Shown here: positions 47,724 through 61,267 of the stretch, in pieces
How the letters are laid out: every line of letters starts with the position of its first letter
How positions within the stretch are numbered: the first letter of the stretch is position 1
Source of the DNA: Anthracocystis setariae
Taxonomy: Eukaryota; Basidiomycota; Ustilaginomycetes; Ustilaginales; Ustilaginaceae
Assembly: GCA_928724745.1 (NCBI GenBank)
Contig: CAKMXJ010000011.1
Location: 186,001-250,000 of the forward strand
Reading direction: 5' to 3'
Length of the DNA stretch: 64,000 nt
Position numbers and translations under genes: made by a program
Notes under the pieces: model-generated
Database searches by the model: none
The model's input: only the letters and a program-made list of their open reading frames with translations
Told to the model about the DNA's origin: nothing

Positions 47724-48806
47724 ATGTCGGCCAACATCTCGTTTCTGGACACGCACATCACGGCTGCACTGATCGGCGTGGTGATTGGAGATATCCTATC
47801 ATTCATGGCGTTTGATATCCGTCTGATCGGAGCCATGATCCAACTACGGCGAGTTCGACCGATGCCTTTTGCCTACCTCCTCTCCCGCTATACCATGGCC
47901 ATCGGTCTCACCGCACTTGCCTCGCTCACCATCCCAGAAATCACCACCCACAGCGCTCAGCGCTCCTGCGCACTGCACTGGCTACGTACCCTACTTCTCC
48001 CCTTGATCCTCACTTCGACCTCGGCCGTCCTTGGCTTCCGCGCACTCGTCCTGCACTTTGACCAACCCAAACTCATCACCACCCTCATCCACACCCTCCT
48101 CGCACTGGAACTATTCGGCGGAATCACAGTGCTCTCCCTCGCAACAACCGAAGCGGACAACACCTCGATGAACGGTCGAACGGAAATCGTACCGCAAGCT
48201 TGGATCTGTGCGCCAGTGGCGATCGCCATGTTGATCGATGCGATCTTTACGCTGCTCGTAGTGGTGCCCATTGTGCATCGCGATGGATGTCCGCCGAAAG
48301 GGCAAGTGGTGCACATGCTGTTGTCGGACGCTTTGTTCTTCGGTGCCTTCTCCATCGTCGTCAAGGCGATCGCGATCGGGACGACGTTGCATTTCGCAGC
48401 GAACGGAACAAATACTTACCTGGCTATCCGAATGGAAGGAGTGGCAAGTACTGTATTTGCATGTCGGCTGTTTCGTGGTCAGGAGTCTTTCCTAAAGGAT
48501 CACAGGGATAGAAAGGCTCAGCCCCGCTTGGAGACTATCGAGACAGACGAAGATATGCAGCCAGGGGGAGTGCATGTGGGAGATGGAGGAAACAACAAGT
48601 CGGTGGAAGCAACGAACTGGAAGGCCAGAATCACACTCACCGACGGCGTAGAAGGGCTGGAACTTCCCAAGACTGCTGACCCATCGTTGTCCAAAAAACA
48701 GCAGCAGCAGGAGCAACAAGACGTTGGTCAGCAACGCGAAAAGTCGAGGAAGGACTATGACCAGCTGATCAGAGCGAGGCTTCGTGCTGCATATCTTGCG
48801 GCGTGA
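47724..48806 (+). CDS. Polytopic membrane protein, unknown
   Basis: This 360-residue protein (MSANISFLDTHITAALIGVV) has about six to seven hydrophobic helices in the first 245 residues, for example AALIGVVIGDILSFMAF, LLPLILTSTSAVLGFRAL, LIHTLLALELFGGITVL, ICAPVAIAMLIDAIFTLLVVV and LFFGAFSIVVKAIAIGTTL. A hydrophilic C-terminal tail of about 110 residues contains a short Gln run. The layout, with short loops and a cytosolic tail, resembles the many uncharacterised seven-helix proteins of basidiomycetes. No transporter or receptor signature is recognised, and function is unknown. Confidence 0.75.
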   Translation: MSANISFLDTHITAALIGVVIGDILSFMAFDIRLIGAMIQLRRVRPMPFAYLLSRYTMAIGLTALASLTIPEITTHSAQRSCALHWLRTLLLPLILTSTSAVLGFRALVLHFDQPKLITTLIHTLLALELFGGITVLSLATTEADNTSMNGRTEIVPQAWICAPVAIAMLIDAIFTLLVVVPIVHRDGCPPKGQVVHMLLSDALFFGAFSIVVKAIAIGTTLHFAANGTNTYLAIRMEGVASTVFACRLFRGQESFLKDHRDRKAQPRLETIETDEDMQPGGVHVGDGGNNKSVEATNWKARITLTDGVEGLELPKTADPSLSKKQQQQEQQDVGQQREKSRKDYDQLIRARLRAAYLAA

Positions 48807-49138
48807 CTTCAAATCTTCCCAGGTACCCGACACTTCTTAGTGTATGGCTGTAGTGGATCGCACCCTAGTGTGTGTGTTCCGATGGGGATCAAAGGGTGAG
48901 GATGTGTAGCGATGGAGATTCGTTGTCGATCAGGATCGGGAAAGTCAAGCGAGCCAACCTCGTCTCGATCCGATCCGAACGTAGCCGCAGGTTGTGATTT
49001 GGCCTGATTCGGACCGCGCTCGGTCAGACATCGTTTGTGCAATGTGCGAGTACCGCAGTAGTTACCCCCGCAGACGACATCGGCATCATCGTATTGGTGC
49101 TGGCGAGGCAGCTTAATTTTTTTTTTTTTTTGGCACAG
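48807..49138. other. Intergenic region before the LTR element
   Basis: No gene is seen. A poly-T run (about 49117-49131) lies immediately left of the miniature LTR element, separated only by GGCACAG, which includes the target duplication CACAG. Confidence 0.4.
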
Positions 49139-49343
49139 TGTCACACGTGCACAGCTTTGCATGCGATGTGTGATAGTGAAGGTAGTAGTGGATTCCAAAG
49201 AAGAGAGATCCGGCAATGACCTTGACTATATATACATGAGGAGTGAGGGGTGAGGAGCGAGGAGTGAGGAGTGAGCGGTAGGGCCAGCCACGGAATGTGC
49301 TTGGCAGACGCTGACTAAGCGTTAGTCACGTGCACACGTGACA
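49139..49343 (-). repeat. LTR, left copy (3' LTR in minus orientation)
   Basis: This 205-bp repeat starts TGTCACACGTGCACAG and ends CACACGTGACA. From GGATTCC at about 49192 to its end (about 152 bp) it appears identical to the right copy, while the first 50-60 bp differ at several positions. An inner inverted repeat GTCACGTG-CA-CACGTGAC and a TGACTAA-GCG-TTAGTCA hairpin lie near its right end, which would be the U3 start. Confidence 0.85.
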
Positions 49344-49512
49344 CTGCCCCCCCTAAGAAAAGCAGCTACGCTGCGAAGAAGAAGGAGAGAGCGGGGAACT
49401 GGGGAAGACGAGAGTCTGGAGAACTAGCGTTCAAGCAGAGCCAAAGTGAGGCTGACAGGCGTGCCAGGCGTCCAAGATGAGAAGGTCAGGCATGGCGGAT
49501 GTAGCCGGAGGT

Positions 49513-49585
49513 GATGAGCTTGACGGAGTGTATGCGGGTTGGTGAAGTGAGCGTGATGAGCTTGACCGGGTGTATGCGGATTTGA
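49513..49585. repeat. Imperfect tandem duplication inside the LTR element
   Basis: Two imperfect copies of a roughly 36-bp unit beginning GATGAGCTTGAC and containing GTGTATGCGG lie in the interior of the element. No coding function is seen. Confidence 0.7.
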
Positions 49586-49666
49586 AGGTAAGCTTGTCGA
49601 GAGGAACAATTGAGAGGATTGCGAGAAGAGCAGTAGTAACGCGGAAGTGTTGACAGAAGCTACCAA

Positions 49667-49873
49667 TGTCACACGATGCACAGCTTGTATGCAGTATGTG
49701 AATAGTAAAGGTAGTGTGTGGATTCCAAAGAAGAGAGATCCGGCAATGACCTTGACTATATATACATGAGGAGTGAGGGGTGAGGAGCGAGGAGTGAGGA
49801 GTGAGCGGTAGGGCCAGCCACGGAATGTGCTTGGCAGACGCTGACTAAGCGTTAGTCACGTGCACACGTGACA
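49667..49873 (-). repeat. LTR, right copy (5' LTR in minus orientation)
   Basis: This 207-bp repeat starts TGTCACACGATGCACAG and ends CACACGTGACA, followed by the target duplication CACAG. On the minus strand, a TATA-like TGTATATATAG lies roughly two thirds of the way from U3 to the LTR end, fitting a promoter that would drive transcription leftward. Confidence 0.85.
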
Positions 49874-52800
49874 CACAGGCACAGAAGTACAAATTTCCGA
49901 CAGGGCGTCAGCTCAGGAAAGGCAAGCAGTTCGGCATCTCGGCACGACCACTTAATCGTTTTATTTGCATAGGTTTTTCTCTTTTTGATTCCATGGTCGG
50001 TGTTTTGGTGTTGAGTGTGAAGAAGATGATGCATGAGATCATGCTTGTCGGTGAGGGACACACAGGACAGGACGAGAGATGCGCCGATGTGGAATGATGA
50101 CCAAGCGGGACGGAGTCATAAGCCAATGGCGGGGCGCGTAGACAAACCGGCGGCCTGGCCAAGCCTAAGCCGCAGAATAAATCACTGGGCTGTACCTGAT
50201 TGACCGAAGACCACGAAAAGGTCTTAACCCTGAACCCTGGAAAAGGCTCTGCACCCACCGAGTCGACCTTGAGACCAACTTCAGCATCTGATAGAGAAGT
50301 GGTACAGTACATGGCTCGGTCGTGGATGTATTTCATGCGTGCCTGTTGCTGCTAGCGTGGCAGCAGTTGCTGTGATTGTGGTAGCTTACAATAATGTTTT
50401 CGATCCACGGCTTATCTTGCATGGGCTTACAAGCGACCGTGCTTGATGTCATTTACGCTCTGAACTCGGCCAGCCAAATCCTCCCTCTCTCTCTACGTGG
50501 CGATTGCATCACGGTCACCGAGCAGCTTGGTAAGGGATATGGGACTGTCGCAAGTCCGGCGACGACAGCATCGCAGCGATCCGATCATCGCAGCTGCTGG
50601 TGGTGCATGCTTCGGTCGCATGGTCCGAAATGGCCCGAAAGCTCAAAGGTGCCTTTGTTTGGGTTCCTATCCGTGTGAGCGAAAAAGGGAGTGGAAGGAT
50701 TCAGGACGAAAGACAGAGTTTGGTGCATTCATGATGATGAATGCGTGACAATCTGATCTGATAGACGGACGGAGTGATTGTTCGGAGGAGACGAGCTGTT
50801 TGGCCCAGAACAGGCGGCTGTTGCAGCGGTAAAAAGGCTTGACTGGACGGTTCGGACCAAGCGGGCCCGATTCCGCGCATACGATTGAGTGAAAGAGTGA
50901 TACACCAGTGAACTCATTGATTGGCGATTGGCGAATGACAGCTGAAAGCTACTGTCTGCATCCTTGGGTCAAGGGGGGAAGGGTCTCCTTGTTCGAGTTG
51001 TCGGATTGGCTGCTTAAGGTTGCCTTCCCGAGGTGGGATGCGAACTGTCGGAAATGCGAGGTTTTGAATGCAGCTAGCAGATGCAGCCTTGCAGCTCAGC
51101 TGCACAGTTGGCGTTGGCATGTTATCTCTCCGAAAAAAAAATCCACCACTGCCGAGTCTACAGCTGGCAGCTGTGTCAAGCAGAGTCTACCGTTGCGACA
51201 GGATTTGGTGTAGCTAGAGTGTACGATCTGGCATCTCACGAGGCTGCTGGCAACAAGCTGATTTGCGAAAGACCCCCTTTTTGGAAAGCCTAACGACACA
51301 TACAGTAGACAGCGGCTGAAAGCCATCGCGGTCTACGGAAACGGTTTCAAGCGCCAAAAAAAAAAAAAAAAAAGGTTCTGGCGCTTTCCGAACATACATC
51401 TCGACGTCGGATTTGAAACATGCTGGGACCTGACCCTCAGCCCAGCAAGTGGGAATTGCTGTCAGGTTTGTTTCAAAGAAGCAGCGGTTGATCAAAACGA
51501 TCAGGAGTGGGTCGGACTGCAGTCATAAAGTACATCCGTCTCAGTTTGACCTATCGAGAAGGCGAGTGAGTGTCCTTCGATTCCAGCAGGTGGCCTCTGA
51601 TCGACTTGCATCAACCGCAAACTACAGTACAGACCGAGCATCAGCGGAGCTGCAAGACCCAACACTTTAGCGCGGGCTTGGCTTGGCTCGGCTCGCGTGC
51701 CCAGCTCGCTTGAATGCGTGAGCAAATATGCTGGAGGCCAAGATGCTGCAGACATATCGAAATCAGAAGTGCAAGACAGCCAATACACTGTAACAATGAT
51801 GAACGGTCGAGGGCGAATCAAGCATCCGTCCTCAAGCAACGACACTTTGATTCAATTGCAGACTACGTAGCTAGCTGTGCTGATTGAACTTTTCAGTGGT
51901 CTCGATGAACGGTGCTAGCACAGAGCGGACCTGCGTTGAGCCCAAATTCACGCTCGTACCTGGAAGTGGTGCTTTATTATAAGTCTGGTAGGCCTCATGC
52001 GACGTTGAGTTGCATTATAATTATTATTTCATTATTATTTTACTATTATTTATATTTTATATTTTCTGATTTTGTTTTCTTGCCCAAAAAAAAAGGCACG
52101 TCGGGCATCCAGTCCGAAAATTTCCACGGTCGATGGACGGTTAGAGCAATGTCTGGTACCGACCCACTCTTCGCTTTCGCAGAGAGACAACCGAGATGCA
52201 AGATGCATGGCAGCAGACAACTAGACCACAGTGTCGGTACGGTGCGGTACGGTGCGGTGCGGTGCAGTGCAGTGCAGTACTGGACTGCACAATACTTGAC
52301 ATACAGTGGGTACTGTAGATGGCTCAAATCGGCATTCGATTGCGACATGGCAAGCTGAGCTCAACTCTGGAGAGCAGCACACTACTGAAATGCACTGAAA
52401 TGCACAATAATAATCATATCAATCCGAGTATGTACAGTATGAGCCAAGAAAAGGGAGAGGAAGAGGGAAGACGAGGATAGGATGGATTTCAGAATTACGA
52501 AACGACAAGAAGGGCCAAGTTCAGTCTCCTACCGCGTGCCCTCGCCTTGTCTCCCCTGGCCTGGCCATGCCATGCCTTGCCATGCCTTGCCTTGCCTTGG
52601 TCTGCCTTGGCCCTGGGCCCTGATCTCGCCTTCCGGGATTTGCACGCATCCTCGCCCCTTCGCTTCCCTGCCCATTGTCGTGGCTTTACATTGTCCGTGC
52701 CCTTCCTCGCCGACATACCGACCTCAATCACCAATTTTAATTACACACGTTTAGGTTCTCCCGCGCTGCTTTCTGGGCCTACCTCATTACCATCCTTTCC

Positions 52801-53490: not shown

Positions 53491-56400
53491 ATGAGCGACT
53501 CACTCGGTTCCAATATCTTGAATGACGCTGCAGCGCCCACTCCGGGCAGCTCCTCCGGCACTCCGGGTAGCAGAGGAACCAAGCGCAAAGACTCGGGTCA
53601 GATCGACATGGTGCCCAAGAACGAATTCAGCCCGATTCACGATAGCCCTGTCAACTACAACAGCGATGCCAACAATGGCAAAGACCCCAATTCGACTGCC
53701 AGATCCACTCCTGGCTCGGCCGAAAAGCCCAGCGGCAAGCGTATCAAGACCGCACGCGCCTGCGACTCTTGCCGTCGCAAAAAGATCCGCTGCGACGTCA
53801 TCGACGATGGCGGTCCGCCCATGGGCTCGGTCAACAATGGTAATGGTGGTCTCGTTTGTGCGCACTGCAGGCAGTACGGCTTCGAGTGCACCTTCTTCCT
53901 TCCCATCACCGAGACGCGCTTCAAGAAAAAGTACCAGCGAGAAGCCGAAGAGGCCGCCGCTGCTGCAGCCGCCGTCGCAGCTGCCTCGGGTGCCAACGGA
54001 GTACCAACTCAATTCTCTATGCATGCCGCCAATTTTGGTGTCACTCATCCTGCCTATCCCAACATGATGGTGGCTCAGCCGTTCATGGGCGCTCTTCACA
54101 ACCCAGCCGGCTTCCACGCCATGCAGACCAACCTCGCGCAACAGCAAGCTTGGGGCACTCGCGTCATGCCGCAACACATTCAGAGCTCTCACTTGCTACG
54201 AGCAAACCCACAGCAACAGCAACAGCAACAGCAGCATCCGCATTCGCAATCGGACGTCGATGGACCCCAGCAGCATCAGATACAAACATCGCGTTCGGCT
54301 TCTGCCCTTCCCCATGTACAGCAGCGAAGAAGCCCATCGCGCACGCCTCCGCCGGATACCCGCGTGCTTGGTCCCACCTCCATCGCTTACATCGTCCACT
54401 CCACCGCTTTCATTCCAGGCGCCGCCATCGAGGCTCACGACATCAAGCACAACCAGACCTTTGAGGTGGGCGCAAGTGGTGATGGTATCATCCGATTCCA
54501 CCGTGCCAAGAAGCTCACTAATTCTGCCTCTGAAGACGAGAAGAATGACTCTTTGTCCGCGGATGCTGAAGACGAGGAAGTCACACGCATACCTGACTCG
54601 ATCAAGGGCCGTCTGGCTGGCGATGTGGCCGAAAAGTTGGTCAACACCTACTTTGAGAAGATTGCCACTCTTTTTCCTGTCGTCACCAAGTCGGAGTTCC
54701 TGCATCTCTCGCCTACGCCGCCCCTGCTACTCTATGCTATCTGCGGAGTTGCTGCACTCAGCCGTGAGGTACCCAAGGAGGTGCTCGGCGCTGTCAAGAT
54801 GACCATCAACGCCCTTTTCCGTGAGAACGACTTTCTCTCGTCGTCCAACTCGGTCACAGTGCGCGCTCTTCTCGTCATGTCGCTCCATGCCGACCTGCAC
54901 GGACCTGCCGCGCTGCAGAGTGGAACACGGTGCTGGAACCGTACTGGCGCTGCCATTCGCATGGCTCAGGATCTTGGGCTGCACCGCGATGCCAGCGGCA
55001 AGGACGAACTCGCACACGACACCTTTTTCTTGGAGCAAAAGCGAAGGATTTGGGGATGCTGTGTCACTGCCGATCGCCTTCAGAGTATCTCATTGGGCCA
55101 TCCCATGGTGATCGACTTGACCGATTGCGATGTGCGCTTGCCGTCTCCTTACGAGATCTTGCGATCTTCCAGTGATCTGCCTTCCGACCCTACAACGGAC
55201 CGACCCTTTGCATACAATACCGAGATGCTCAAGCTTACCATCCTCTTTGGTCGAGTCATGAAGACCATCTACAGCCCAACAGGTCTTATGAACGCTACGG
55301 ACGACGAGATCCTTAGCTTGCTGCGCGACATTGATGCATGGAAAGCAGCTCTTCCTTCCGAGCTCGTCTTTGCCGGGCCGGATTCGAAGGCGCCAGCCGG
55401 TATCCTCCACGTCGGCTTCGCTTGCCTCATGATGCTCTTCTTCCGCGTTTTCATGCGTATCTCGTACATCTGCCCGACGCACCTCAAGTTCAGTCTTACG
55501 ATCGAGAGGATGAGCTCGCTGATTCAGTATTCGACCGAGGCCATCTCGTGGGTAGAGAAGAACGACTTCTACCTCGATACCATGCAGATTGTTTCGTACT
55601 GTCTTGTTTCATGTGCAACTGTGCAGTATCACGCGTTTGTCCGTCGAGGCGACCAGAATGCGCAGGCGCAGCTCCGCAAGCTCAACGAGATCATGGCTCG
55701 CTACCGGCGCGAGAACCACGAGCCGGATGACATCAGCATGCGCGGCAAAGCCGCCAGTGTCATTTCGCTGCTCTGCGACAGTGCTGTGGGCGTCTATGCC
55801 AACACGCCATCCAATGGCACGCTCAATCCAACGGCAGGTGTGACCAACCGCAAGTCGCGCGAAAACGTGTGCGGCATCGTCTTCAAGCCCGATCCTACGC
55901 GACCTGGTGGCGGTGTGTACGTGGCTGCCGAACAGAAACACGTGCTGCGCGACTTGCCCAAGGGCACCATCATCATGTCAGAGACGCAAGACGGTAGCCG
56001 CGTGCCCGCTCTTGTGCGAACGGGCAACGACCAGAACGGAGGCTGGCAGACCTACGAGCAGTACCGTGCCGCGCTTGGCTTGTCGACCAACAAGGACGCT
56101 ACCGACCAGTTTGCCGTTGCGCTGGCTAACGGCGGATTCGCCATGCTCAACAGCGTCAACAGTACGGCATTCTCTTCCGGTCAGGGCACCCCCACAACGT
56201 CGCAGGCAGCAGTTGCTTCGGGCCTCAATAGCAGTGCCAGCGTGGCTTCCTCTTCGGCAGCGCCTGCGACCAGCGGCACTGTCAGCGATTCATTGAGCTC
56301 TGATGCGCTACTCAATCTGACTCACCTTGGCGGCGAAGTGTGGCAGGACGCCGAGGGTCGGCCTGTCACTCGCTCTGGCACACGACTGCTGACTATGGTG

Positions 56401-56891
56401 CCTGTGCCACCCAATGCGATCAGCGCCAGCAATGCGTTCCTGGACTCGAATTTGGCGACGTTCGCCAACGCGTCGGAAGCCGGCAACAGTGACAGCAGCG
56501 CGGCGCCGACCAATGCCAGCAATTATCTGGGCAACATGTCGAACTTGGGCTTTGGTGGCAACGGCGGGACGCAATTGTCGGTGGCCAAGAACGCCATCAT
56601 ACCAACGGATCCGAACTTTAACTTTAACCCGCATCTCAACAATGCGTACTGGGCACCGGCCGAGTTTGTTTTCGATGCGAACAGCACGAGTGGAGCAGGC
56701 TCGGGGTCGAACAATGGCGTGGGTCTGTTTGCGTCGCGCGTCGATCCCAACATGCTAGATGGCATCCCAGGCGCACCGCTCGACTTTGCCAATTGGGACG
56801 CTTACTTTAGTCGCATGAACAATCAGGCGTCTGGCGAAAGTGCCAGTGGAGATGGCTCAACGCAGCAGAATAATCATGGCGCTCAACAACG

Positions 56892-56948
<57 letters not shown>

Positions 56949-57030
56949 ATACTCGAACGGTGATGGAACGGGGTTTGCAAATACGACGTTTGGCATTGAA
57001 GCTCAGATGATGGACGCTGGTCGATTCTAG
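53491..57030 (+). CDS. Zn2Cys6 fungal transcription factor
   Basis: This is a 1,179-residue protein starting MSDSLGSNILND. The binuclear zinc cluster uses Cys91, 94, 101, 123, 126 and 133 (C-x2-C-x6-C-x21-C-x2-C-x6-C), with RACDSCRRKKIRCDV and CAHCRQYGFECTFFLPITET. The basic residues between the first three cysteines fit DNA contacts. The central fungal transcription-factor homology domain spans about 380-720, with KSEFLHLSPTPPLLLYAICG and RIWGCCVTADRLQSISLGHP. Gln tracts occur near residues 235-245 and in the C-terminus (about 1135-1155). The C-terminal third is Ser/Ala/Asn-rich, a likely activation region. The long x21 loop is outside the common range for this family. Regulon and close orthologue are not identified. 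Confidence 0.88.
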
Positions 57031-58765: not shown

Positions 58766-61267
58766 ATGCCTCTCCTCAGGGCGACAGAGCTGCCGTTGCA
58801 GTTTGCTACGACGGTGCTTGCCAAGGATCCGACAGGCAAAGGTCCCGAGGGAAGCGGCTCAGGTCGATCCCTTCCTACACCTCTCCTCGTTGTCTCTACT
58901 CTTTCTGCCCTCTTTGCAACCGTGTTTTCCTTCTTCCTCATCTGGAAGCATCTCAAAAACTACCGCAAACCTACGCTTCAGCGCTATGTTGTCCGCCTTC
59001 TCCTCATGGTTCCCATCTACTCGATCGCTTCGGTCATCTCGCTCTACTCGCTCGAGCTTGCCGACATCATCGACCTCTTCCGCGACCTCTACGAGGCCTT
59101 TGTCATCTACTGTTTCTTCAACCTCCTCATCGAGTACCTAGGTGGAGAACGAAGCTTGATCGTGCTCCTCCACGGCAGGCAACCTCAAGAACACCTGTTT
59201 CCCGCCAACATCTTCTTGCATGATATGGATGCCTCCGACCCATACACCTTTCTCGCTCTCAAAAGAGGCGTGCTGCAGTACGTCCAAGTCAAACCCGTCC
59301 TCGCGGTGGCAACGCTCTTGCTCAAAGCAGCAGGCAAATACCAAGAAGGCAAAATCTCGCCTACCAACGGATACACTTGGGTCTCGTTCACCTACAACGT
59401 CTCTGTCTTCCTCTCCCTCTACTGCCTTGGCATGTTCTGGAAGTGTCTCAACGATGATCTCAAGCCGTTCCGCGTCACATCCAAATTCCTCTGCATCAAG
59501 GGCATCATCTTCTTTTCCTTCTGGCAAGGGCTGGGCATCTCGATCCTCGTCGCTGCCGGCATCGTCAACAAGGTCGGCCCCGTGTACGATCCCGAGTACA
59601 TCTCGATGGCGATTCAGGATTTCATGATCTGTTTGGAAATGCCCATCTTTGCTCTGGCACATGCGTATGCCTTCTCGCATACCGACTACATCGATCCCTT
59701 TGCGCACTATGCTGCTCGTCTGCCCGTCTACTATGCGCTTCGCGACTGCATCGGTATGTACGATGTGTTTTCAGACAGTCTCACTACGGTGAGGGGTACA
59801 GGTTATGCCTATCAGACGTTCGAGCCGAGCGAGGGCGTCGTTCACCAGCCGCTGGCGCGCCAACGTAGGTCTAAGGCTGGCTTGCGTTACACGCAAGGTG
59901 GCAAAGGCAAGTATTGGTTGCCTCAGCGTGGAACGGGCGATATACGCGATGCAACGCGTGGTGCACGACATCAAGGACCGCTTAAGAAACTTCGCAGATA
60001 CATCAACGATAAGCGCATGCAGCTTGAAGGTCATGCCCCGCTGACCCCGCAGGAGGCGGATGAGATTGTACATCAACATCCCGACTTGGCCCACCACCAC
60101 GACGATGATGGCGGAGGAACTTCGGAGAACAGTCCGCTTCTACGCCATCCCAAAGATGCGGCGAGAAGTGCGGTTCGTCATGCGGGTGAGGGCCTCGACT
60201 TTTTCGCCGAGAGACAGCTCGATTCCGACGAGGAGGCCGAGGATTTGAGGTTTGACGATCCGGATTCCGACGAGGAGGATGCGTATCAGCGGTCGAGGAC
60301 GTTGCATTTTGGCGATTATGCCTATCCGAACATCGACATCAATCGCGAGCGCGTTAGGGATGAGAGATGGCAGCACGATGACGAGATTGTGCATCGGCGG
60401 AGGAGGAAGGGGACCATCTCGAAGAGGGGTGCAGAGGAGGAGGTGGGGAGGGGGAGCAAGGGCAAGGCGCATGATAGGCGGGATGGTCTTCGAGATGGAG
60501 ATGGTGCAAGTGGGAGTTTGGAGAGTTGCGGATCTCGTGGTGAGGTGGTGGGAGTGAAGGGGAAGGCGAAACGCAAAGCGAGTCAGGGTGAGGCGAGTCG
60601 AGTGTCCAAGTCGCCCAAGAGTAGCGCCAAGAAGGATGCAAAGGAGCCTAGCAAGGGGGTTGAGGACGGTGCATCGCCGTGGCTTTCGTGGGATCGTGAG
60701 TCTGCTTCTACTTCAAGTCCGTCGAAGGTGGATGGTGAGGATAGGGGGAATGGGATTAAGGAGGCTGACGGTGCAAATTCCGAGGCGGAGGGGAAGGAGG
60801 CTGACCCGTATGGTGCAGTTGATTTGGTCGTAGAGGATTATAAAGCCGAAGAGCGCGAGCGGTTGCTCGAACGACGTCGGGGCGATCCAGCTTTGAGAGC
60901 GGGCAAAGGTACGCGAATCTTTCGCAAACAGTACCAAGCTTCACCTACAACCTCGAACGCATCCACTCCACTCAACGAAACCCCTCCACACGTAGTCAAC
61001 AGGGACGCATCTACAACAACCGCGCTCAACCCACCCGCGTCAACCGCCACCGCGGTCACCGTCAACAAGCAAGGCAAAGAGAAGCGTGACAACAAGGTCA
61101 GCGTGCAACTCGAGGATTCAAATCCACCAACAACCGATCCAATGGATAGGTTGGTCAGCAAGAGGATCGATGTGGATGATAACCACGATTTCATGCACGG
61201 CAAATCGATCTCCCCGCTCCGCTCGAATGAGACGATAGACGAGGATGGCGCGAATCCGTGGGCTTGA
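58766..61267 (+). CDS. TMEM184/Hfl1-type membrane protein (organic solute transporter Ost-alpha family)
   Basis: The ATG lies in a CCACCATGC context and the protein is 833 residues. About residues 35-335 form the seven-helix DUF300/Ost-alpha domain: HLKNYRKPTLQRYVVRLLLM, YEAFVIYCFFNLLIEYLGGE, GVLQYVQVKPVLAVATLLLK and FWQGLGISILVAAGIV. The remaining 500 residues are a hydrophilic tail rich in Asp/Glu, Arg/Lys and Ser, likely cytosolic. Fission yeast Hfl1, of the same family, is a vacuolar membrane protein that recruits Atg8 through its tail. A role at the vacuole/endosome is inferred from that relative only. The length of the tail varies widely in fungi. It converges with eIF1A. Confidence 0.88.
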   Translation: MPLLRATELPLQFATTVLAKDPTGKGPEGSGSGRSLPTPLLVVSTLSALFATVFSFFLIWKHLKNYRKPTLQRYVVRLLLMVPIYSIASVISLYSLELADIIDLFRDLYEAFVIYCFFNLLIEYLGGERSLIVLLHGRQPQEHLFPANIFLHDMDASDPYTFLALKRGVLQYVQVKPVLAVATLLLKAAGKYQEGKISPTNGYTWVSFTYNVSVFLSLYCLGMFWKCLNDDLKPFRVTSKFLCIKGIIFFSFWQGLGISILVAAGIVNKVGPVYDPEYISMAIQDFMICLEMPIFALAHAYAFSHTDYIDPFAHYAARLPVYYALRDCIGMYDVFSDSLTTVRGTGYAYQTFEPSEGVVHQPLARQRRSKAGLRYTQGGKGKYWLPQRGTGDIRDATRGARHQGPLKKLRRYINDKRMQLEGHAPLTPQEADEIVHQHPDLAHHHDDDGGGTSENSPLLRHPKDAARSAVRHAGEGLDFFAERQLDSDEEAEDLRFDDPDSDEEDAYQRSRTLHFGDYAYPNIDINRERVRDERWQHDDEIVHRRRRKGTISKRGAEEEVGRGSKGKAHDRRDGLRDGDGASGSLESCGSRGEVVGVKGKAKRKASQGEASRVSKSPKSSAKKDAKEPSKGVEDGASPWLSWDRESASTSSPSKVDGEDRGNGIKEADGANSEAEGKEADPYGAVDLVVEDYKAEERERLLERRRGDPALRAGKGTRIFRKQYQASPTTSNASTPLNETPPHVVNRDASTTTALNPPASTATAVTVNKQGKEKRDNKVSVQLEDSNPPTTDPMDRLVSKRIDVDDNHDFMHGKSISPLRSNETIDEDGANPWA

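Follow-up and report, generated by a model that had tools for sequence, protein, structure and literature searches.

A probable TRIM-like miniature Ty3/gypsy element with unequal LTRs, and its larger relatives, in the genome of Anthracocystis setariae

How does a long terminal repeat (LTR) retrotransposon with no coding interior arise and move in a fungal genome, and why would its two LTRs differ from each other? Both questions are raised by a mini-element on the minus strand of the stretch of Anthracocystis setariae DNA analyzed here (64 kb; hereafter the window), which covers 735 bp at 49139-49873, with LTRs of 205 and 207 bp around a 323-bp interior (49344-49666; Table 1). A preliminary description, made from the sequence alone, had placed a miniature LTR element with 5-bp CACAG flanks at 49134..49878, and we found these coordinates exact to the base and both flanks in place. 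The other signals that it listed are also present: the G-rich purine tract before the 3' LTR in the minus orientation is AGGGGGGGCAG, the TGG one base inside the 5' LTR is seen on the minus strand as TTGG (one base, then TGG), the motif in the LTR is TATATATA, found in both repeats, and the interior is non-coding, the longest ATG-initiated open reading frame (ORF) within the mini-element having 23 aa. Its account of LTRs of about 205 bp with TGTCAC...GTGACA ends holds for the ends and lengths of both repeats, but the pair are not equal copies, their overall identity being 95%. Homology between them stops at the borders rather than running past them: of the 20 bases compared on either side, just 5 and 8 agree. 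A chance repeat, already judged unlikely from the sequence alone, is ruled out by these sharp borders and by the at least 40 scored places across the genome that match the mini-element. Likewise, the plus-strand orientation is ruled out, since the primer-binding site (PBS) and polypurine tract (PPT) are placed right on the minus strand only (by eye).

Table 1. Features of the mini-element in window coordinates
Feature	Position	Strand	Remark
Target-site duplication CACAG, left copy	49134..49138	.	sequence
Target-site duplication CACAG, right copy	49874..49878	.	sequence
3' LTR (left repeat), 205 bp; type A in U3, type B at the R-U5 end	49139..49343	-	
5' LTR (right repeat), 207 bp, type A throughout	49667..49873	-	
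TATATATA in 3' LTR, from LTR position 110	49227..49234	-	
TATATATA in 5' LTR, predicted promoter, from LTR position 110	49757..49764	-	
Type-B tract, U5 end of 3' LTR	49139..49187	-	17/17 informative sites match L031; coordinates by arithmetic
A-to-B switch interval, 3' LTR (LTR positions 131-156)	49188..49213	-	bracketed with L031; coordinates by arithmetic
Polypurine tract AGGGGGGGCAG, directly before 3' LTR	49344..49354	-	
3' end block common to larger gypsy elements	49344..49390	-	91-95% over 36-46 bp, 7 other places
Interior tail, like 3' region of several larger elements, though not of every one	49384..49481	-	shuffle scores
20-codon ORF starting ATGCCTGAC	49431..49493	-	
Leader segment like larger elements' 5' leaders	49482..49606	-	best L028, L024, L026, L020
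Two 30-bp direct repeats, 90% alike, 42-bp spacing, in leader	49511..49582	-	
First 58 bp of interior	49609..49666	-	86% like leader of C7:523288 gypsy-like element
Primer-binding site TGGTAGCTTCTGTC	49652..49665	-	complementary to tRNA-Met end + CCA

Searching the 21.5-Mb assembly (36 contigs), we found that the mini-element matches at least 40 places, itself once (40 of 52 candidates scored). Sorted by hand, the 40 scored places comprise the mini-element itself, 10 unpaired LTRs that resemble it closely (the two types called A and B here), eight LTR pairs (16 places), and 13 other partnerless LTRs. Exact 5-bp target-site duplications (TSDs) flank all eight pairs. Among the 10 solo LTRs of types A and B, exact 5-bp flanking repeats are found in six (one of them only C), and the remainder show a 6-bp repeat in one, a single mismatch in two, and a repeat offset by 2 bases in L031 (by eye). 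Types A and B together count 10 unpaired LTRs and one two-LTR element, against 13 unpaired and eight two-LTR for the other type (hand count over the at least 40 places), a solo-LTR excess that is suggestive only. The 5' LTR of the mini-element has 100% identity to a solo LTR on contig C32; no type-A LTR was found on a large element, the LTRs of the five full-length copies described below being about 80-84% like those of the mini-element. Two features of the LTR copies are of separate interest. The first 44 bp of U3 (49300-49343, 49830-49873) are nearly invariant among the aligned copies, with L023 deviating most, and the rest of U3 varies; this start contains two dyads, GTCACGTG-TG-CACGTGAC and TGACTAA-CGC-TTAGTCA, which are possibly regulator or integrase sites. 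Moreover, four single LTRs on four contigs (L100, L101, L102, and L103) have the left flank ccaaat in common, and three of them the right flank tgcacg, so they are probably located in a larger repeat.

The PBS points to the primer with which such an element would be copied. TGGTAGCTTCTGTC pairs over 14 nt with the end of tRNA-Met(cat), made up of the final 11 bases encoded by two gene copies and the CCA that is added to tRNAs after transcription. Both gene copies, L098 (C2:567835) and L099 (C36:108313), have the T-loop ATCGAAA, a mark of the initiator tRNA, and since the two sites fold as a tRNA-Met cloverleaf, the primer tRNA predicted from these sequences is the initiator tRNA-Met; it answers to TGGTAGCTTC, whose tRNA the preliminary description had proposed to identify. 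In both genes, the anticodon is followed by an intron of 41-42 nt. The tRNA family search of the genome returned at least 61 matches (62 of 611 candidates scored). A first tRNA-end pattern had no matches in 30 tRNA loci, but it required TTC at the T-loop and so cannot fit an initiator tRNA. When broadened and allowed one mismatch, the pattern hit 26 forward and 27 reverse sites, compared to 49 and 57 in the control, and is weak alone. The cloverleaf was read at two sites of this wider pattern, its four exact sites being left aside. A dense cluster of A+T-rich tRNAs marks contig C24, which is probably the mitochondrial genome. A pattern joining LTR end and PBS found 24 sites with at most three mismatches (control, 0 and 1). 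Because eight of these 24 places (C1:197314, C4:463620, C6:19807, C6:184787, C7:523331, C7:537728, C8:240549, and C17:589620) have other LTR ends, GTGTAACA or GTCTGACA, and no PPT block of the mini-element's family, several gypsy-like families in this genome seem to share one primer tRNA.

The preliminary description had called for a larger element with the same PBS and PPT, and 15 such elements were found, eight of them with a similar LTR. A pattern of PPT plus LTR start has 16 sites with at most three mismatches (control, 0 and 0), 15 besides the mini-element, and all 16 have an upstream PBS on the same strand, at 5.1-5.2 kb in nine cases and 12-37 kb in six; the mini-element, at 0.3 kb, is the sole pair under 5 kb. 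Each of the 15 larger pairs encloses matches to the coding region of one copy, L018 (by hand), often in pieces and with identity down to 66%, and the LTRs of the seven elements outside the similar eight were either not fetched or below scoring. The mini-element therefore shares PBS, PPT, and flanking blocks with 15 coding Ty3/gypsy elements and its LTR with eight, and we presume from this shared sequence that larger Ty3/gypsy elements of the same genome are its helpers. Five copies (L018-L022) measure 5.57-5.62 kb and have LTRs of 183-195 bp that differ within each pair at 0-1 sites, exact 5-bp TSDs, and open frames of 400-442 aa and 1,176-1,238 aa (starts ATG, GTG, or TTG). In L018, the one copy scanned, pieces of pol match Pfam families for protease, reverse transcriptase, RNase H, H2C2 integrase, and a Tf2-1-like SH3 domain, in an order that we take to be that of Ty3/gypsy; no Pfam family matched its gag piece, and the integrase catalytic core is absent from the matches as well. 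Elements at C14:529904-543799, C2:1332963-1348355, and C2:1131395-1168957 (L024-L029) likewise show exact TSDs and 0-1 differences between their paired LTRs, and span 14-38 kb with a coding region interrupted by inserts of about 8-17 kb. Another three PBS-PPT pairs extend over 12-21 kb.

The interior of the mini-element appears to combine two gypsy pieces, a leader that extends as far as a gag-like ATG and, attached to it, 3' sequence, with the coding region absent. Its leader segment scores against the leaders of L028, L024, L026, and L020 at a level that none of 500 dinucleotide shuffles reach, and two of 500 reach for L021; the corresponding counts are 20, 17, and 98 of 500 for L022, L019, and L018. 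The end of the leader, ATGCCTGAC, corresponds to ATGCCCGAC at the presumed gag start in L018, L020, L021, L024, and L028, that is, in five of the eight large-element leaders aligned, the others deviating or stopping too early. Similarly, the tail reaches scores against the 3' regions of L019, L021, L022, and L025 that none of 300 shuffles attain (one for L020, four for L018), and is unsupported for those of L027 and L029 (243 and 77 of 300). Against the whole loci L018-L022, in that order, 18, 0, 1, 4, and 0 of 100 shuffles reach the score of the tail. The interior is also a mosaic: its first 58 bp are like the C7 element at C7:523288 (L010), which carries LTR ends unlike those of the mini-element and to which the leader segment shows no such likeness (276 of 500 shuffles reach its score), and the next part is like the C14 and C2 elements. 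Template switching is thus suggested. The genome search proposed in the preliminary description for LTR and interior was borne out for the LTR, with further copies found, but not for a second full short copy: the nine matches to the interior are itself and eight to the interior ends alone, most of it is single-copy, and the mini-element is the only short form found.

As the preliminary description held, the structure is TRIM-like, every TRIM character that we checked being present except multiplicity. TRIM elements of plants and the harvester ant are described as shorter than 1 kb, with LTRs of about 100-350 bp, a non-coding interior, PBS, and PPT, all as in the mini-element, and for those of plants the likeness extends to 5-bp TSDs and a Met-tRNA PBS (PMC3532108); TRIMs are listed for bivalves and Echinococcus as well. 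However, plant and ant TRIMs are reported to form families of many copies, for most of which no large relative is known, whereas the mini-element is single-copy and has large relatives in its genome. For plants, a known large relative is given for 11 of 289 TRIM subfamilies, four of these with full coding capacity (PMC4717578). Because only its ends recur elsewhere, we call the mini-element TRIM-like and not a TRIM family. The earlier remark that such elements are less often described in fungi needs qualifying, as fungal TRIMs have been annotated in Cochliobolus heterostrophus (nine; seven related to Copia, two to Gypsy), three of five Boletales genomes, and Zymoseptoria tritici (one family) (PMC4112212, PMC5689174, PMC10652580), and these are short non-autonomous LTR elements like the one described here, as far as their reported counts and classes go. 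Among the titles and abstract openings of the literature matches listed, in which subscription journals are thinly covered, none concerns a TRIM in smut fungi. In elements of the Helenus/Ajax/Cassandra type the LTR is described as containing a small-RNA gene, 5S- or tRNA-like (PMC10886601), whereas no Rfam family scores above its gathering threshold anywhere in the 64-kb window, and an RNA-gene origin of the mini-element LTR is ruled out by this lack of a match. The kind of element is therefore already known, also in fungi, and the interest of this one lies in its unequal LTRs and in having large relatives at hand. For most plant TRIMs no large relative has been identified, which leaves their origin and means of movement open; here, related copies with long frames stand in the same small (21.5-Mb) fungal genome, and birth, trans-mobilization, and RNA co-packaging of mini-elements would become testable in a tractable fungus.

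Taking the copying signals, the interior, and the LTRs as a whole, we consider it probable that the mini-element is a non-autonomous, TRIM-like miniature Ty3/gypsy LTR retrotransposon that was inserted in its short form, a reverse-transcription jump having removed its coding region and a template switch having given it a 3' LTR of types A and B. Under such a mechanism, RNA polymerase II would transcribe it from the TATA box in the LTR, and the larger relatives would supply the Gag and Pol that package and copy the mini RNA. The initiator tRNA-Met would serve as primer at the PBS, and the G-rich tract as the start of the plus strand, as the shared signals suggest. Most likely, the coding sequence from the gag start to the 3' untranslated region (UTR) would have been lost in a reverse-transcription jump. 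Template switching in R would have supplied the 3' LTR with the R-U5 end of a type-B RNA packaged alongside, gene conversion being about equally likely for this step. That integrase inserted the element with a 5-bp duplication is shown by CACAG. Alternatively, a full-length type-A gypsy element may have inserted at this site and had its coding region deleted in place later, so that the short form never moved. We regard this as unlikely, even though the short form was found once, just one of the 16 PBS-PPT pairs is under 5 kb, and 10 other type-A/B LTR places among the at least 40 scored stand without a listed partner LTR. Against deletion in place speak the extent of the loss, which begins near the first gag codons, reaches the 3' UTR, and spares the copying signals and little else, and the interior mosaic, which suggests template switching. 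The main weakness of the reading in which the short form moved is that it has a single copy to go on.

The LTRs themselves point to a further event. In textbook reverse transcription, an element receives two identical LTRs, so the difference between types A and B requires an extra step. The pair is identical over 156 bp on the U3 side, and all differences fall in the last ~50 bp, at the U5 end. Set against L031, a solo LTR of type B, the 3' LTR agrees with type A at 31 informative sites and from there on with type B at 17, changing once, between LTR positions 130 and 157. The other type-B solos give much the same picture: 30 A and 17 B sites by L030, with one A within the B run; 34 A and 16 B by L033 and 30 A and 16 B by L032, each with one site of neither kind; and the last A site at 145 by L033 and 153 by L032. 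The switch lies some 14-39 bp below the end of TATATATA, the TATA box, where transcription and hence R would be expected to start, R being placed from the TATA box alone. It could also be that the altered LTR is the 5' one.

Could reads from other LTR copies merely have been merged into one LTR by the assembly? LTRs are repeats, but the left flank anchors the type-B end and the mostly single-copy interior anchors the type-A U3, over ~50-130 bases each, and a matching TSD stands on the outer LTR ends, which makes an artefact highly improbable. A far stronger contender is gene conversion after insertion, with an unlinked LTR copy as donor for one LTR end. We give it a nearly even chance; it would explain the asymmetry only and is compatible with our main reading of the element. 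The four type-B solo LTRs (L030-L033) are possible donors, the TSDs would remain intact as observed, and gene conversion of LTRs is reported to be common in plants, where 25% of LTR pairs contain regions that may have been converted (PMC7251063). Length is a weak argument against it: the tracts reported in that study were mostly 100-1000 bp compared to ~50 bp here, but tracts below 50 bp had been excluded. Also against it, the tract reaches the outer LTR end and has its inner edge close to the expected start of R, and no such tract occurs in the eight other LTR pairs, each of which shows at most one difference (seven further large elements left out). The position of the switch slightly favors template switching over gene conversion. 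Tentatively, the mini-element may preserve a single reverse-transcription event, in one cell, on two RNAs packaged together, that of a type-A mini-element and that of a type-B relative: minus-strand strong-stop DNA made on the type-B RNA would have jumped in R to the type-A RNA to yield the A/B 3' LTR, and the A/A 5' LTR would derive from the type-A molecule, either by intermolecular second-strand transfer or because copying ran on into its own U5. We hold this detailed scenario to be possible rather than likely; if true, fungal mini-elements would be born and kept variable through dimer packaging with full-length relatives.

Parallels to template switching in R have been described in other systems. 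Hybrid LTRs with U3 and R/U5 from different parents, mostly attributed to the first template switch in R, are reported for Onsen of Arabidopsis (PMC5668417), and two unequal LTRs per insertion for HIV-1 proviruses, for which strong-stop transfer between co-packaged templates has been proposed (PMC9278108). However, Onsen copies are coding elements from an induced burst, whereas the mini-element is one natural copy with one plain and one hybrid LTR, and the asymmetry in HIV-1 is a deletion, whereas here it is a swap of U5 type. Unequal LTRs of this kind also caution against dating insertions by LTR divergence: an identity of 95% hints at age, whereas 156 bp free of differences hint at a recent event.

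One protein encoded in the window shares 69-73% identity with proteins named from Kalmanozyma, Pseudozyma hubeiensis, Ustilago, Sporisorium, and Melanopsichium, so that its host probably belongs to the Ustilaginales. A run of 15 T at 49117-49131 ends two bases before the mini-element, and an ORF at 47724-48806 lies ~330 bp before it. Among the neighboring ORFs, 46253-47020 matches ribosomal protein S21, 53491-57030 a Zn2Cys6 fungal transcription factor, and 58766-61267 an Ost-alpha-type transporter.
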